From a virus: DNA of 28,145 nucleotides. The stretch lies in IMG/VR virus record IMGVR_UViG_3300017968_000030, positions 1-28,145 of that record; one strand, 5' to 3'. This document shows positions 9,612 to 18,024 of this stretch, in pieces. The notes under the pieces are model-generated. The model did no database searches. It saw only the letters and a program-made list of their open reading frames with translations, and was not told where the DNA came from. The first letter of the stretch is position 1. Each line of letters opens with the position of its first letter. The position numbers were made by a program, and so were the translations under genes.

Positions 9612-9818
9612 TTATTCCAACGGCAATAATTCTATCGCCCGGTTGCTGATGCGTCTAGCCCCGCCCCGCTCGATCAAGCCGGTCAATTGCATCTGGATCG
9701 TGGTCTGGCCCTTCCCCATAAAGCGACCTAATTCCCGCGTGGACGGCGTGTAGCCGTATTCCCGCTGGAATATACTGATCGCATCCCAGATGCGCCTCTG
9801 TGCCTCTGTAAACGCCAT
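9612..9818 (-). CDS. Stand-alone LexA-type winged-helix DNA-binding domain
   Basis: 68 aa, all of it matching the N-terminal DNA-binding domain of LexA: FTEAQRRIWDAI, YGYTPSTRELGRFMG, then QMQLTGLIERGGARR and RAIELL. The S24 autocleavage domain of LexA is absent, so the protein cannot be inactivated by RecA-stimulated self-cleavage. Its ATG overlaps the YqaJ stop by one base (TAATG on the minus strand); it is the last gene of the leftward operon. It is likely a transcription regulator of the phage, perhaps reading SOS-box-like sites or autoregulating the operon. The domain call is solid; the target is unknown. Confidence 0.82.
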   Translation of the reverse strand: MAFTEAQRRIWDAISIFQREYGYTPSTRELGRFMGKGQTTIQMQLTGLIERGGARRISNRAIELLPLE

Positions 9819-10777
9819 TAATCCAGTTCCTTGATTTGCAGGGTCTTGGATCTAACTGTGCGCTCCGGCTTGGCCGGGGTCAGCTTTTCGGGCTGCGCAC
9901 GATATGTGCGGCTTGGCCACTTAACCAGCACCCGGCGGTTGCCGACCATCGCCTCAACCTCTTCAGACCGGCCCATCCTGTCCATAAGGAATGATGTGAA
10001 CTCAGCGATGTCCTCTTCGGCGTTGGCCTTTTGCTTGAGCGCGTGCATCAGGCAGTCAATGGCTGTCGCCTCATCGCCTGCGCCATCATCCCAGTACAGC
10101 CGGTCATCGATGCCGGTCGGATAGGCAGCGATGCCATCCTCCGGCGATGTCACTGGATACATCTCACCAGTCTTGCGGCGTTCCTCGAAGTCTTGGATGG
10201 CCAGCACGATGCGTTGCTGTATGGCCGGATCGGCTTTGTAGAGGAACAGGCGCAACTCAGTGCCACGATACAGCACCGCGATGACCCCGGCTTTGAGGCC
10301 AGTACACATCATCTGGGCCTGCAACTGCAAAGGACCGCGATGTGCGGCTGGCGGGTTCTCCGGCATGACGCTGGTATTCTTCGCTTCCAGCAGGATCTCG
10401 CCGGTCAGGTCGATCATGTCACCACCCTGCGGCGTGTAGATGCCGTTGGCTGGATCAGACGCCCACTTGCGATTGCCCTTGGCAGATCCATCGAGACTGG
10501 CCGCAAGCGGCAGTGTCGGATGCTGGAACGCGGCGGGGAAGCTGGTGCGCAGATCTTTGAGGCCGAGGCGTTCAGCCGCAACGGTCAGGATCTGCTCTTC
10601 CAGCGTGTCGCCCCAGAACATCGGTTCGTTCTGCGGGATGCGGGTTGGTGTGCCTCCCCGGTCGATGTCGATCATCTCAGCCAGCAGTTCGTTGCGGGTC
10701 TGATACGGTGATGCGTTCAGTAGAACCGGGATGCGGCTGGCTGAAAGCTGGTCATCTCTAGTCAGTTTGCCAACCAT
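9818..10777 (-). CDS. YqaJ-type viral recombinase / exonuclease
   Basis: 319 aa. The family are PD-(D/E)XK 5'-3' exonucleases that work with a recombinase or an ssDNA-binding protein, as lambda Exo does. Visible motifs: ASRIPVLLNASPYQT near residues 13-27, MFWGDTLEEQI at about 53-63, LAASLDG with Asp96, ILLEAKN with Glu131 and Lys133, and QLQAQMMCTGL (151-161) with the Gln-rich motif typical of YqaJ. No partner annealing protein (RecT/Bet) is obvious in the operon; the ssDNA-binding candidate at 14145 might serve. The start overlaps the 72-aa gene upstream by one base. Confidence 0.88.
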   Translation of the reverse strand: MVGKLTRDDQLSASRIPVLLNASPYQTRNELLAEMIDIDRGGTPTRIPQNEPMFWGDTLEEQILTVAAERLGLKDLRTSFPAAFQHPTLPLAASLDGSAKGNRKWASDPANGIYTPQGGDMIDLTGEILLEAKNTSVMPENPPAAHRGPLQLQAQMMCTGLKAGVIAVLYRGTELRLFLYKADPAIQQRIVLAIQDFEERRKTGEMYPVTSPEDGIAAYPTGIDDRLYWDDGAGDEATAIDCLMHALKQKANAEEDIAEFTSFLMDRMGRSEEVEAMVGNRRVLVKWPSRTYRAQPEKLTPAKPERTVRSKTLQIKELD

Positions 10778-10995
10778 TATATCAGTCCTCTCTCTTGCAT
10801 TTGTCCTTTGATGAGCATGACGATCTGGCAGTCATCTCCATCCAAAAAATGTTTTTCCAAATATTCGATTTCCTCTTTTGTTGGCAAAACATCTTCGACA
10901 TATCTGATTGCAAAAAACTCCATCGCAGAGATTTTAATATCATTGTGCCAAGCCTCAAACTCTGACACCAATACATGATTTCTATTGTTACTCAT
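10777..10995 (-). CDS. Small acidic protein of unknown function
   Basis: 72 aa starting at the ATG at 10995, which overlaps the HNH stop as TAATG; an upstream start would add five residues but lacks this coupling. I do not recognise a family. The sequence has mixed helix and strand character and is acidic (VEDVLPTKEEIEYLEKHF, DGDDCQIVML). Its DNA is clearly more AT-rich than that of the flanking YqaJ and recombinase genes and like that of the HNH gene, so the two may have arrived together. It could be an accessory or inhibitor of either nuclease neighbour; this is speculation. Confidence 0.5.
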   Translation of the reverse strand: MSNNRNHVLVSEFEAWHNDIKISAMEFFAIRYVEDVLPTKEEIEYLEKHFLDGDDCQIVMLIKGQMQERGLI

Positions 10996-11594
10996 TATAC
11001 AGTCTCCCATTTGTTAGATTTACGCAGATTTTCTTCAGCCGTGATTATCTGCAAATTCCACGGCACATGCAGACCACAAACATTTTCGCCTTTAAGTGGC
11101 ACGATGTGGTCAACGTGATACTTAATAAATCCAGCATCCTTGTTCATTTGACGAGACTTCCTGTAGAGCCTCATTATCGATGGACGCAGAGACTTACATA
11201 TAGGCCTTATGCTTTCTCCCCTGCTTTTGACACCATTTGCCTTTTCGTAAGCCCTCATATAATCAATTATTTTTGCTTTATTTTTTAGATAATATTCGCG
11301 CTTATACTTTTGGCGCTTGGCCTTGTTTTTTATTCGGTCTAACCTCGCGCACTCAACGCAAGTAAAAGAACAAGAATAGCGAAGTGTGTGACCATATTTA
11401 CACGGTTTGCCGTGGTGCTTTGCCCCTTTTTCTTTTGCCATCTCCCGCGCTTTTTTTGTTAGACCCACATCACAAGCGGCGCACACTTTTCTTTTTGTGT
11501 GTCGCTTATCTATGTGACCCCGCTTGCAAGGCTTGCCAGTGAAATAGTGCGACAAACCTTGCTCAACCGCCTCTTGGCGCGTAATAATCTCCAT
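10995..11594 (-). CDS. HNH endonuclease with two Cys-rich zinc-binding repeats
   Basis: 199 aa from the ATG at 11594, chosen because it overlaps the stop of the small upstream gene (TGATG). Two N-terminal copies of GKPCKxGH...CxxC (Cys23/His27/Cys38/Cys41 and Cys65/His69/Cys79/Cys82) look like tandem zinc-binding knuckles. A long basic stretch follows (about 84-120). The C-terminus is a classic HNH nuclease: [11 protein letters not shown] with Asp162-His163, HVPWNLQ with Asn180, and ENLRKSNKW. Family members are homing endonucleases or packaging-associated nucleases. The AT-rich composition and the place inside an otherwise coupled operon suggest a free-standing homing endonuclease; no intron is seen. 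Confidence 0.85.
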
Positions 11595-11725
11595 CACACT
11601 GCTCCCCCAAAGCGAGCCATCAAGGCCCAGACGTTCCAATCCTCAGTCACAAGGCTTGTCCCGAATACGATGACCAAGCCGGTCAGGATAATCATGCCAA
11701 TTGCATCGATTATGTTTTCACGCAT
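11594..11725 (-). CDS. 43-aa single-span membrane peptide
   Basis: A short frame of 43 codons: ATG at 11725 with a GGAGACA ribosome binding site four bases upstream, ending in TGA that overlaps the HNH start (TGATG). The peptide begins [19 protein letters not shown] after Met, followed by [21 protein letters not shown], giving one clear membrane segment (about residues 5-24). It fills the whole gap between recombinase and HNH. The good ribosome site and the coupling support it as a real gene. The function is unknown; such peptides in phages are often superinfection or holin-like factors. Confidence 0.55.
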
Positions 11726-14144: not shown

Positions 14145-14774
14145 ATGCTTAGTTATCAATCAGCCGGAAGCGGCAACGGCGGCGGGGATCGCACCCCAAT
14201 CCTGAAATTCTCAGCCAAGGACGGCAGCTTCATTGCTGTCGATCGGCAGCAAGTGGATGGCCAGTGGACATCTCACGAGCAGGAACTGGAGGCACCGATC
14301 AAGGTGGCGATGGATCTGGCTGAGATCGAAATGGGTTGGATGCACTTTAATCCAGCGCCGGATTTCCATATGGCCAAGTCTGGGCAACAGCGCCCAGAAA
14401 AGCCGACACCTGACCACAAGTGGGGCTTTCGCGTGCGCCTCACCAATAAAGAGATGGGCCTGCGTGAACTGTCCAGCAGCAGCCGCAACGTGTATGAGCG
14501 GATGCTGGCGCTGTATCAGGCGTATGAGGCTGGCAAGGCCCAGAACCCGGGCAAGGTGCCAGTCGTGGACATCACCGGCACAGAGCGCGTGACGCAGACG
14601 CTGAACGATGGCCAGACCCAAACGTGGCGTGTGCCGCAGTGGACGCTGTCGGGCTGGACTGATCGCCCGGCGTCTTTTGACGGCGCACCAGCACAAGAAC
14701 CCGCACCGGCGCCGGTCGCGCCGCCAGCCTCAATTCCTCCGAGCGAGGCAGCGGCAGGCGCAGACCTGTTCTGA
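14145..14774 (+). CDS. Putative single-stranded DNA-binding protein
   Basis: 209 aa; AGAGG precedes the ATG. The first 165 residues contain many aromatic and basic positions (LKFSAKDGSFIAVDRQQ, EMGWMHFNPAPDFHMAK, HKWGFRVRLTNKEMG, SSSRNVYERM). A Pro/Ala-rich linker (PAQEPAPAPVAPPASIPPSE) then leads to a short tail ending GADLF. A folded domain, disordered linker and short hydrophobic-ended tip is the layout of ssDNA-binding proteins. It lies directly before the primase-ATPase. I recognise the type from phage replication modules without being able to name the family. Function is inferred. Confidence 0.55.
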   Translation: MLSYQSAGSGNGGGDRTPILKFSAKDGSFIAVDRQQVDGQWTSHEQELEAPIKVAMDLAEIEMGWMHFNPAPDFHMAKSGQQRPEKPTPDHKWGFRVRLTNKEMGLRELSSSSRNVYERMLALYQAYEAGKAQNPGKVPVVDITGTERVTQTLNDGQTQTWRVPQWTLSGWTDRPASFDGAPAQEPAPAPVAPPASIPPSEAAAGADLF

Positions 14775-14849: not shown

Positions 14850-16673
14850 ATGACAAATTTATCAGCATACATAGAACAGGTGGCGCGGCATTATCTGGGG
14901 GAGCCAAACGCCAAGCTGTCGAAAGGCACCGAACTTCGCTTCGGCAATTTTGGCAGTACGTCGGTGGATCTCAGAAAGGGCACGTTCTTCGATCACGAGA
15001 AAGGCGTTGGCGGCGGCGTGATTGATCTCGTGCGCCTGCATGAGCCGGTCAGCATGAATGGCAGATTGCCGGATATTCTGGAGACCAAGTTCGGCATCCC
15101 GAAGCAGACGCAGACAAAGCTGCAACCGAGCCGGTTCCTCGCCAAGCGATACAGCTACGTCAATGCTGACGGCGAGGTGGTGTTCGAGGTTGAGCGGTAT
15201 GAGCCAAAGACATTCAGACAGCGCCGCCCTGATGGCAAGGGAGGATGGCTGTACAATATGGATGGCGTCCAAGCGGTGCCGTACAATCTGCCGAAGATGA
15301 TGGAGAAGCCAGACGCGGCGGTATTCATCGTGGAAGGTGAGAAATGCGCCGACAGGTTGTCAAAGCACGGCCTGATCGCCACCACAAATCACGGCGGCTC
15401 AAAGAATTGGAAGCCGGACCTCAACCAGTATTTTGCTGGCCGCAAGGTGGTGCTGATCCCTGACAACGATGAGGCGGGGCAAAAGCACGCCGATGTGGTG
15501 CAGAGCCAGCTATGGGGCGTTGCAGCGGCCATCAAGCGCGTGGATCTGCCGGGATTGCCTGACAAGGGCGATATCGTGGATTGGCTGCTTGCTGGCAATA
15601 AGGTGGAGGACTTGCAGGCACTGGTGAAGGCGACACCGCCACTAGCGGTGGAGCCGGAGCCAGCACAGCCGGAAGAGGCGCAAGACATATATCCGCTGTA
15701 TGACGAGGCGTACCTGATGGCGATGCCGCCGGTCGAGTGGATGATAGACGGCGTGCTGACCAAGCACGGCTTCACGGTGATGTATGGCGCACCCGGTACA
15801 GGTAAGTCGTTCATCGCCATTGATATGGCGCTCTGCATGACGCACGGCCTGTTGTGGCACGGCAGGGAAACAAGCGCCGGGGCCGTGCTGTACATAGCCG
15901 GGGAAGGCGTATCCGGCCTTGGCAAGCGCGTCAAGGCGTGGAAGCAGCACAATGAGGTGGACGGCACCGGCTCACTCAGGGTGCTGCCAGTGGCGGTCGA
16001 TATGATGGATCAGGAAAGCGTGGAAAAGCTGCTGCGCACGATCGACAGCCTGAACACAGAGTTTAGCTGTCTGGTGATCGACACAGTGGCGCGAAGCATG
16101 ACCGGGGAAGAGAACAGCGCCACCGACATGAGCGCCTTCATACGCGGCTGTGACGCCATCAAGCATCACACCGGCTGTGGCCTGCTGGCGATACATCACG
16201 CTGGCAAGGACGCATCACGCGGCATCAATAGCATGCGGGGATCGTCAGCGCTGGCTGGTGCCGCCGATACGGTGCTGGCGGTAGGCAAGTCGGAGAGCAT
16301 CGTGACGCTATCGATGGAAAAGCAAAAAGACGCAGATCCGATGGATAGAATCACGTTTGAGATGGTGCCGATCGCACTGCTGGAGGACAGCAGCGTGGTG
16401 CTGCGGCCTATCGAGGCACAAGGCGCAACCAAGAAGCAGAACCTGTCGCCGAGGCAGTATCATGCGCTGCAAGCACTGCGAAACACGCTAATCAAGGTGG
16501 GTGTGGATGCGGTCGGAACCGGGCTTTGGCATGACGCACATAAGGTAAAATCGCCCGATCTTACGCCGCAACAGCGCAAAGATGCGCGTCAGGGGCTGCA
16601 AGACAAGGGTGTGGTGACTGTGCATGAGGGCAAAGTGTGGATAAACAAGGACATAGGGGAAAATGTAAGATGA
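14850..16673 (+). CDS. Primase-ATPase fusion: TOPRIM domain plus RepA-like AAA ATPase
   Basis: 607 aa. Residues about 1-95 resemble the N-terminal part of TOPRIM primases (GTFFDHEKGVGGGVIDLV) but lack the zinc-binding cysteines. The TOPRIM domain spans about 155-250, with FIVEGEK (159-165) and PDNDEAG (204-210). A linker leads to a RepA/DnaB-like ATPase with Walker A GAPGTGKS (313-320) and Walker B CLVIDTVA (407-414), then LLAIHHAGKDASRG and GSSALAGAAD. The C-terminal 80 residues look like a small winged helix (LTPQQRKDARQGLQDKGVV). It should prime and unwind at the phage origin. It is the central replication protein here, as no phage DNA polymerase is visible. Confidence 0.87.
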   Translation: MTNLSAYIEQVARHYLGEPNAKLSKGTELRFGNFGSTSVDLRKGTFFDHEKGVGGGVIDLVRLHEPVSMNGRLPDILETKFGIPKQTQTKLQPSRFLAKRYSYVNADGEVVFEVERYEPKTFRQRRPDGKGGWLYNMDGVQAVPYNLPKMMEKPDAAVFIVEGEKCADRLSKHGLIATTNHGGSKNWKPDLNQYFAGRKVVLIPDNDEAGQKHADVVQSQLWGVAAAIKRVDLPGLPDKGDIVDWLLAGNKVEDLQALVKATPPLAVEPEPAQPEEAQDIYPLYDEAYLMAMPPVEWMIDGVLTKHGFTVMYGAPGTGKSFIAIDMALCMTHGLLWHGRETSAGAVLYIAGEGVSGLGKRVKAWKQHNEVDGTGSLRVLPVAVDMMDQESVEKLLRTIDSLNTEFSCLVIDTVARSMTGEENSATDMSAFIRGCDAIKHHTGCGLLAIHHAGKDASRGINSMRGSSALAGAADTVLAVGKSESIVTLSMEKQKDADPMDRITFEMVPIALLEDSSVVLRPIEAQGATKKQNLSPRQYHALQALRNTLIKVGVDAVGTGLWHDAHKVKSPDLTPQQRKDARQGLQDKGVVTVHEGKVWINKDIGENVR

Positions 16674-16757
16674 CCATCTTACGCAAATCTTACGTTCATC
16701 GCAGGGTGGGTGGGGTGTGATGATCCCTAGGATCACACCCTACCATCGCACCCTACC
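16665..16757 (+). repeat. Iteron-like direct and inverted repeats; candidate origin or operator
   Basis: At the end of the primase gene and in the following gap there is GTAAGAT (16665-16671), inverted relative to two ATCTTACG copies at 16676-16683 and 16687-16694, which are 11 bases apart start to start. Next comes a hairpin, GGGTGTGAT (16713-16721) with ATCACACCC (16732-16740). CACCCTACC occurs at 16736-16744 and 16749-16757, with a one-mismatch inverted copy at 16709-16717. The set lies between primase-ATPase and the initiator pair, a natural place for an origin. No sign of a terminator T-run. Confidence 0.6.
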
Positions 16758-16775
16758 TTTTAAGGGTACATTTTA

Positions 16776-17336
16776 ATGGCTAAACGACCAAAAAAACCGA
16801 ACAAGACTTACTATGCGCCTAGTCAACTGGCGATGCGCCGGATGCAAGATGCGCTGGTCAAGTATGATGAGGCAGTGACCAAGCTGGAAGCGAAATGGGG
16901 CGTGGACCGATTGCCGTGGCTAGTCGGGCATGAACTGCGGGAGCGGTTTGATGCGCAGATGGACAAGCTGAACAAGGCCATCGATGATCAGGCCGATGTC
17001 GAGCATCAGGTGGATGTGACGATGAGAGGGCTGACGCTGCTGGAGCAGAAGGCCATCGAGGCAGGACATCAGCCGCTGACCGGCGAGTATTGGGAAGCGC
17101 CGATGCCGAACGGCAAGGTGCTGGCAATCGTGCGCACCGGCTATGAGGTGGGCAAGGTCAAACGTGAGAACAGGGAAATGGTGGTGTGCAGTGTCGAAGA
17201 GGTGGCAAAGATGGTGCAGGCTTATATGGAGCAGGCACCAGCGGTGGAGAAGGCAAAGGATCTGTGGCCGGGCGCAACCGTTGAGAAGATCAAAACAGCA
17301 ACCGAGAAGGAACTGAATGATGAAATCCCTTTCTGA
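16776..17336 (+). CDS. Replication-region protein with SSB-like acidic C-terminal tip
   Basis: 186 aa with a basic N-terminus (AKRPKKPNKTYYAP), a helical middle with coiled-coil character (about 25-85) and a small folded part around GKVLAIVRTGYEVGKVKRENREM. The last residues are ELNDEIPF, very close to the DDDIPF tip through which bacterial SSB recruits repair and replication proteins. The gene is in the replication block after the repeats, and its end overlaps the initiator start by 20 bases. I do not recognise a named family. A partner of host SSB-binding proteins is an inference from the tip. Confidence 0.6.
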   Translation: MAKRPKKPNKTYYAPSQLAMRRMQDALVKYDEAVTKLEAKWGVDRLPWLVGHELRERFDAQMDKLNKAIDDQADVEHQVDVTMRGLTLLEQKAIEAGHQPLTGEYWEAPMPNGKVLAIVRTGYEVGKVKRENREMVVCSVEEVAKMVQAYMEQAPAVEKAKDLWPGATVEKIKTATEKELNDEIPF

Positions 17337-18024
17337 AGATAAGCGGCCTTGGTCTGTTGTGCCGATGCGTGCATTCGGGGATAGGACGCTGAAGGAACGC
17401 GAACTGCGGGTGCTGGGAGCGCTGTCAGCCTTTGCAAACAGGGCTGGCGTGTGTTGGCCCAGCATGTTCACGCTGTGCGATGTGACGGCCTACAAAGAGC
17501 GGCAGACGATACATGACGCGATCAAGGTGCTGAAGCAAAAGCGATACATCCGGCAGTTGCGGCCCAAGGATTACCAAGAGACGGCAAGCGGCTGGAAGAG
17601 CAATCGCTATCAGGTGCTGTGGGATGGTGACGAGCCGCTGCCCACGCGGGAAGAGATAGACATCGCCAAGCCACTACAGCCTGTGCGTGACCAAGATGGC
17701 GATGGGCAGGAAGAAACAGGGGGTCTGGGGGATTTGCAATCACCCTCTCATCACCCCGATCAGCCGCGACCCGGCGACCCAAAGTTAACCGGAATTCAGT
17801 TAACAGCCGATGAGATCTGCAACGCCTACATCGTGGCCGTGCAGCAGGCGACCGGGCAGGCGCGGCTGTACGCCAATGAGATAGCACACGCGCGGCGGCT
17901 GGCTGACGCTGGCCACGGTGCGGCTGACGTAAAGGCGGCAACGCTTAACGTATGCGACCAAGCGCTGGAGCGCCGGGCAGGGGTTCCATCGCTGGCAGAC
18001 GTAGCGAGGGCGATGAGTGTATAA
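17317..18024 (+). CDS. Replication initiator with winged helix-turn-helix
   Basis: 235 aa; ATGATG start within the end of the preceding gene. Residues about 28-85 (RELRVLGALSAFANRAGVCWPSMFTLCDVTAYKERQTIHDAIKVLKQKRYIRQL) are a classic winged helix-turn-helix of replication initiators, with SGWKSNRYQVLW as the wing region. A hydrophilic linker (about 110-155) separates a C-terminal helical domain (TADEICNAYIVAV ... SLADVARAMSV) that may act like the DnaD or lambda P type of helicase-loading part. It probably binds origin repeats such as those at 16665-16757. The domain is clear; the origin site is inferred. Confidence 0.75.
   Translation: MMKSLSEDKRPWSVVPMRAFGDRTLKERELRVLGALSAFANRAGVCWPSMFTLCDVTAYKERQTIHDAIKVLKQKRYIRQLRPKDYQETASGWKSNRYQVLWDGDEPLPTREEIDIAKPLQPVRDQDGDGQEETGGLGDLQSPSHHPDQPRPGDPKLTGIQLTADEICNAYIVAVQQATGQARLYANEIAHARRLADAGHGAADVKAATLNVCDQALERRAGVPSLADVARAMSV

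Follow-up and report, generated by a model that had tools for sequence, protein, structure and literature searches.

We found that a phage protein without a single-stranded DNA-binding protein (SSB) domain carries the C-terminal tip of a bacterial SSB. Across its family, the tip sits on either this protein (hereafter, the tip protein) or the phage SSB, never on both, as if it were kept where it can be presented. The window we analyzed is the whole 28,145-bp viral record IMGVR_UViG_3300017968_000030. The tip protein gene (P0001, 186 aa) lies at 16776..17336 (+), and its translation ends in ...EKELNDEIPF. Read directly from the sequence, the codons for NDEIPF occupy 17316..17333 (+) and the stop codon 17334-17336. 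The initial annotation had likened this tail to the bacterial SSB tip, and we agree, as the chain ends in an acidic residue, Ile, Pro and, at the last position, Phe.

Layout of the replication cassette

The upstream end of the replication cassette is a PDDEXK_14 phage endonuclease (13658..14113, +; Pfam match, 1.3e-29). It is followed by an unannotated 209-aa SSB-like protein that we call type A (P0002; 14145..14774, +), by a RepA-like primase/helicase (AAA_25, Toprim-like; 14850..16673, +), by the tip protein gene, and by an HTH_36 replication-initiation-like protein (17317..18024, +), the RepA-like and HTH_36 products being assigned by family searches. The tip protein gene is therefore upstream of the initiator, as previously annotated, flanked by the helicase gene on one side and the HTH_36 gene on the other. 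The ATG of the HTH_36 gene (17317) overlaps the tip codons. Ahead of the tip protein gene is an intergenic stretch (16674..16775, +) in which a repeat search found inverted repeats, with arms at 16709-16721/16732-16744 and 16662-16671/16687-16696; it is a possible origin or operator. The region 16662-16744 also holds a 13-nt direct repeat. The cassette order (SSB, RepA helicase, tip protein) is fixed, and a RepA-like gene separates the SSB and tip protein genes in 266 of the 272 loci with a recognized SSB. Elsewhere in the window, a minus-strand block (9612-11639) encodes a LexA-like DNA-binding protein, a YqaJ/RecE-type exonuclease, a small ORF, and an HNH-like protein.

Conservation of the tip

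Our first homologue search returned 67 loci, all with the tip. One query peptide (EKELNDEI) included part of the tip itself, which biased the result toward conservation, and we therefore repeated the searches with profiles of the body alone. With conservation among homologues checked in this way, D-x-I-P-F/W was present in all 139 distinct relatives that adjoin a type-A gene (136 with the exact tip and 3 with one extra Gly). The tip is the best conserved part of the family, even though only the body was used for searching. Among 61 clusters of the type-A-adjoining relatives (80% identity, positions counted from the C terminus), positional entropy was 0.33 bits for D(-5), 0.69 for I(-3), 0.21 for P(-2), and 0.49 for F(-1), against 2.6-3.7 bits for the 24 residues preceding the tip. 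Ancylobacter, Methylocystis, and a betaproteobacterial genome carry relatives whose bodies are only 25-35% identical and whose linkers differ in length, yet these too have the tip.

As a control, from the loci collected up to that point we took the distinct plus-strand ORFs of 80 aa or longer, leaving out SSB genes; apart from tip proteins, 0 of 3170 ended in [DEN][DEN]x[ILV]P[FW]. The codons for the tip Ile, Pro, and Phe vary over all synonyms among relatives. These observations bear on the idea that the tip is a by-product of overlap, forced by the start of the next gene (ATGATGAAATCCC...). In the window, and likewise in 103 distinct relatives, a downstream start does overlap the tip codons. 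However, 77 distinct relatives carry the tip without any overlapping downstream start, and where the genes overlap the peptide in the other frame changes (MMKSLS, MTTYHF, MTLSLS) while IPF stays constant. We reject overlap as the cause of the tip and give it virtually no weight. The clean ORF control, the low entropy of the tip, the free codon variation, and the overlap-free relatives together make the tip more than chance, and show strong selection on its peptide sequence.

The tip resembles the bacterial SSB C terminus (DDDIPF) in its acidic-acidic-x-Ile-Pro-Phe pattern, in its place at the very end of the chain after a flexible stretch, and in matching the consensus of the host class. All 30 alphaproteobacterial SSBs that we sampled end in D/N-D-D/E-I/V-P-F, 18 of them in DDEIPF, and Glu at the third tip position is frequent in tip proteins, as in most of the sampled host SSBs. 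Unlike the bacterial case, the tip is here on a non-OB protein beside a separate phage SSB. The family is mainly phage-borne, since only 4 of 385 alphaproteobacterial genomes contain a match. In the phage isolate ctyzp037 (MW202711), RepA (L217, 481-2781) ends in ...TFDDIPFD, which is the tip plus one residue, and the tip protein ends in SDPIPF.

The type-A SSB-like neighbor

The type-A protein has a beta-rich core (AlphaFold pLDDT 88) joined by a Pro/Ala linker to an acidic-aromatic end that is conserved. This end is GADLF in the window (14757-14771, +, from the sequence) and GSDLF, YETDF, DDMEF, or ETDF elsewhere, never I-P-F. It is almost invariant as GADLF/GSDLF (or DDMEF, ETDF). GADLF is like sliding-clamp-binding motifs, and it also resembles some host tau ends (EADLF, DLDF). 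The type-A model had no significant match in the PDB, with a few OB-fold SSBs among the non-significant ones, and hhalign found no link between the type-A sequence and either the type-B SSB described below or host SSBs. From its gene position, its mutual exclusion with type B, and its beta-rich model, we infer that type A is the SSB of these phages.

Reciprocal placement of the tip

In other loci, the position of type A upstream of RepA is occupied by a gp2.5/Enc34-type SSB, which we call type B. No locus holds both types. Type B is gp2.5-like by profile (phrog_112, E of 1e-12 to 4e-17; PF10991 Enc34 above cut-off for CRP-831), and these profiles (phrog_112, PF10991) matched neither the tip protein nor the type-A gene of the window. 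Type-B SSBs, which include the "ssDNA-binding protein" of roseophages CRP-811/831, are unrelated to the tip protein in fold and sequence; the phage of the window has type A instead.

Counting distinct pairs of a tip protein and its SSB, we found the tip on the tip protein in 139/139 pairs with type A and in none of the 51 with type B (absent 51/51). In the type-B pairs, the tip lost from the tip protein is borne by the SSB in 50 of 51 cases, in forms such as DDDIPF, GDDIPW, and DDALPF. Of the 51 type-B SSBs, 46 terminate precisely at the tip, 4 continue for 3-5 residues beyond it, and 1 is degenerate. The four extended tips (L274, L284, L292, and L408) are followed by MMEWR, IMEWR, or DFAA. 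The terminal Phe of an SSB tip is normally free, and matters. The degenerate case, L279, is the sole locus without an intact tip on either protein, with a tip protein ending in GDDINFGETE and a type-B SSB reading DDEIPTNFA...EDAEWA. The untipped family members end in worn tips (EDDIDFGVIE, DDAIDFL, GDDINFGETE) in which Pro is gone and further residues follow. This untipped kind includes the cultured roseophages CRP-811/821/823/831. The hypothetical protein beside RepA in CRP-811/821/822/823/831 is a homologue in the same cassette, at 26-29% identity; it ends in DGLF/EGLF plus 2-3 residues, with no tip, and the SSB of these phages ends in DDALPF or DDDIPW.

A tree built from the body shows three separate origins of type B. 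Well-supported branches force this result, every bootstrap tree shows it, and a single type-B clade is rejected (p-AU 3e-6). Each of the three SSB replacements coincides with loss of the tip from the tip protein. Given five losses on the tree, the chance that all three replacement stems would carry one is about 1.5e-4, a rough value obtained by placing losses at random by branch length and treating them as independent. The remaining two losses, L192 and L246, are at loci where neither SSB type was found. At L192 (5986-6540), the relative has a worn tip (WQKGDNLPDYMMAG), and no SSB gene is recognizable upstream. A sign test on independent pairs had 2-3 pairs, all concordant, too few to reach significance.

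The initial annotation held that homologues lacking the acidic-Ile-Pro-Phe end would speak against its reading of the tail. Such homologues do exist, but only beside a tip-bearing SSB of the other family or at the few loci where no SSB was found. It had also left open whether the protein recruits or blocks host SSB partners. Because the tip-less homologues occur in this lawful pattern, with losses confined to those two settings, we favor recruitment for phage replication over blocking. The same pattern weighs against a decoy, in which the tip would titrate SSB partners off host DNA and shut down host replication or repair with no service to phage replication. On a soluble protein that is not an SSB, a free tip of this type could compete with SSB itself for partner pockets, and it does copy the SSB tail of the host class. 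Yet there is no reason for a decoy to become expendable at just the point where the phage SSB gains a tip, and the gene is always within the replication cassette beside RepA. We therefore consider a decoy quite improbable.

The target of the tip could instead be a phage protein, such as the RepA helicase, the RecE/YqaJ-type exonuclease, or a recombination protein, which the SSB tail would reach in type-B phages. This arrangement would give the same relocation pattern, and phage SSB tails do bind phage partners, as with HK620 Sak4 (PMC5928155). We nevertheless regard a phage target as unlikely, given that the peptide is close to the host SSB consensus, with Glu common at its third position as well, and has persisted while the cassette diverged deeply.

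Body of the tip protein

The tip protein consists of a basic N terminus (MAKRPKKPNK), a helical half (residues 17-95), a small alpha/beta module (105-163), a short linker, and the tip. Its AlphaFold model, from 69 sequences, has a mean pLDDT of 79 and a pTM of 0.49, so the overall arrangement is uncertain. The body had been annotated as lacking a recognizable OB fold; the predicted helices and small alpha/beta module bear this out, and PF00436 is not matched. Searches of Pfam, NCBIfam, and PHROGs gave no Pfam or NCBIfam family and no convincing PHROG, and a fold search of the PDB gave nothing significant. We also found no Pfam, PHROG, or PDB match to a recombination mediator (Orf/RecO/Sak-type). 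A viral structure library contained 13 related predicted models, all of uncharacterized viral proteins; one bears the name "terminase small subunit", which we take as a misnomer. Weak Pfam matches in single relatives (portal, histone-fold, troponin, and others) were treated as chance.

The basic N terminus raises the idea of intramolecular or partner control, in which the acidic tip would mask a basic surface that binds DNA, either on its own body or on the type-A SSB, and recruit nothing. Acidic tails are known to reach back to the DNA-binding site of their own SSB, as discussed in PMC5928155. Such control has no need for the exact Ile-Pro-Phe of the host, and its tip would not vanish upon a change of SSB type, which makes it highly improbable.

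Just ahead of the flexible tail, residues 156-175 (AVEKAKDLWPGATVEKIKTA; 17241..17300, +) resemble the last structured stretch of the C-terminal domain of alphaproteobacterial DnaX (tau), PF12362 (DUF3646), sharing V..vK..FPGA.VE.vK. Matches to PF12362 by hmmscan in relatives had E values of 0.003-0.007 and scores of 17-18 bits, under the 30.2 cut-off; no domain-wide match rose above the curated cut-off, and the signal was confined to these residues. By hhalign, the likeness to PF12362 gave P 1.4e-6 over 23 columns and disappeared once residues 156-175 were removed. When 12,598 ORFs from the loci were scored, no protein outside the tip protein family reached E <= 0.1. We treat this resemblance of about 20 residues as a lead and make no claim of family membership.

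Discussion

We propose that the tip protein is probably an accessory replication adaptor, displaying in trans a docking tip of the SSB type and so recruiting host replication proteins. Host proteins dock on the SSB tip. Candidates are the chi subunit of the Pol III clamp loader, PriA, DnaG, and RecO/RecG. Single-stranded DNA coated by a tail-less type-A SSB would be invisible to such proteins. The body would anchor the tip protein at the replication fork of the phage by binding the phage SSB, the RepA helicase, or DNA, and the tip protein would offer the missing tip and allow the host Pol III holoenzyme and its helpers to work on phage DNA. Supply of the tip in trans is the simplest account of the reciprocity. 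Phages whose SSB bears the tip still keep the tip protein, so its body may serve in a further way that does not involve the tip.

Twenty-eight large records of the family, from both type-A and type-B phages and mostly incomplete, were searched for PF00436 SSBs and for the Pfam DNA polymerase families A, B, and pol III alpha, and none of these was found. From these records, such phages would depend on host Pol III. Some subgroups were described as lacking a polymerase gene in the CRP-822 paper (PMC12629253). The SSB of phage HK620 offers a parallel, as its C-terminal hexapeptide (NDYPPF) is required for bringing its partner Sak4 to SSB-coated ssDNA (PMC5928155); a phage-encoded tail of this kind can thus work by recruitment. 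Unlike the tip described here, the HK620 tail is on the SSB itself. Several points count against the adaptor reading: (i) there are only three independent replacements; (ii) L279 is degenerate on both proteins; (iii) four type-B tips carry an extension; (iv) the case for type A as an SSB draws on gene position, mutual exclusion, and a beta-rich model; (v) most of the phage records are incomplete; and (vi) the tip may have a phage target.

The tau-like stretch allows a more detailed version of the adaptor, to which we assign a low probability. The C-terminal residues of E. coli tau bind Pol III alpha (PMC11470591). In such a split SSB, type A would coat ssDNA, and a fork adaptor with an SSB tip and a tau-like element could grip a tip-binding subunit (e.g., chi) and Pol III alpha, coupling the phage helicase to the host replicase, provided that the tau resemblance is functional.

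In the literature we searched, which covered few subscription papers, no phage protein other than an SSB was described as ending in an SSB tip. The tip itself is known; its carrier and its relocation appear to be undescribed there. Our results suggest that evolution can shift the SSB docking signal, as a movable element, between unrelated proteins of one replication cassette, and its relocation is a natural experiment on the purpose of the tip. They also point to type A as a phage SSB-like family that has been overlooked, and to a small natural tip carrier that would be useful for mapping SSB-partner contacts in Alphaproteobacteria. More broadly, they point to a way in which polymerase-less phages may enlist the host replisome.
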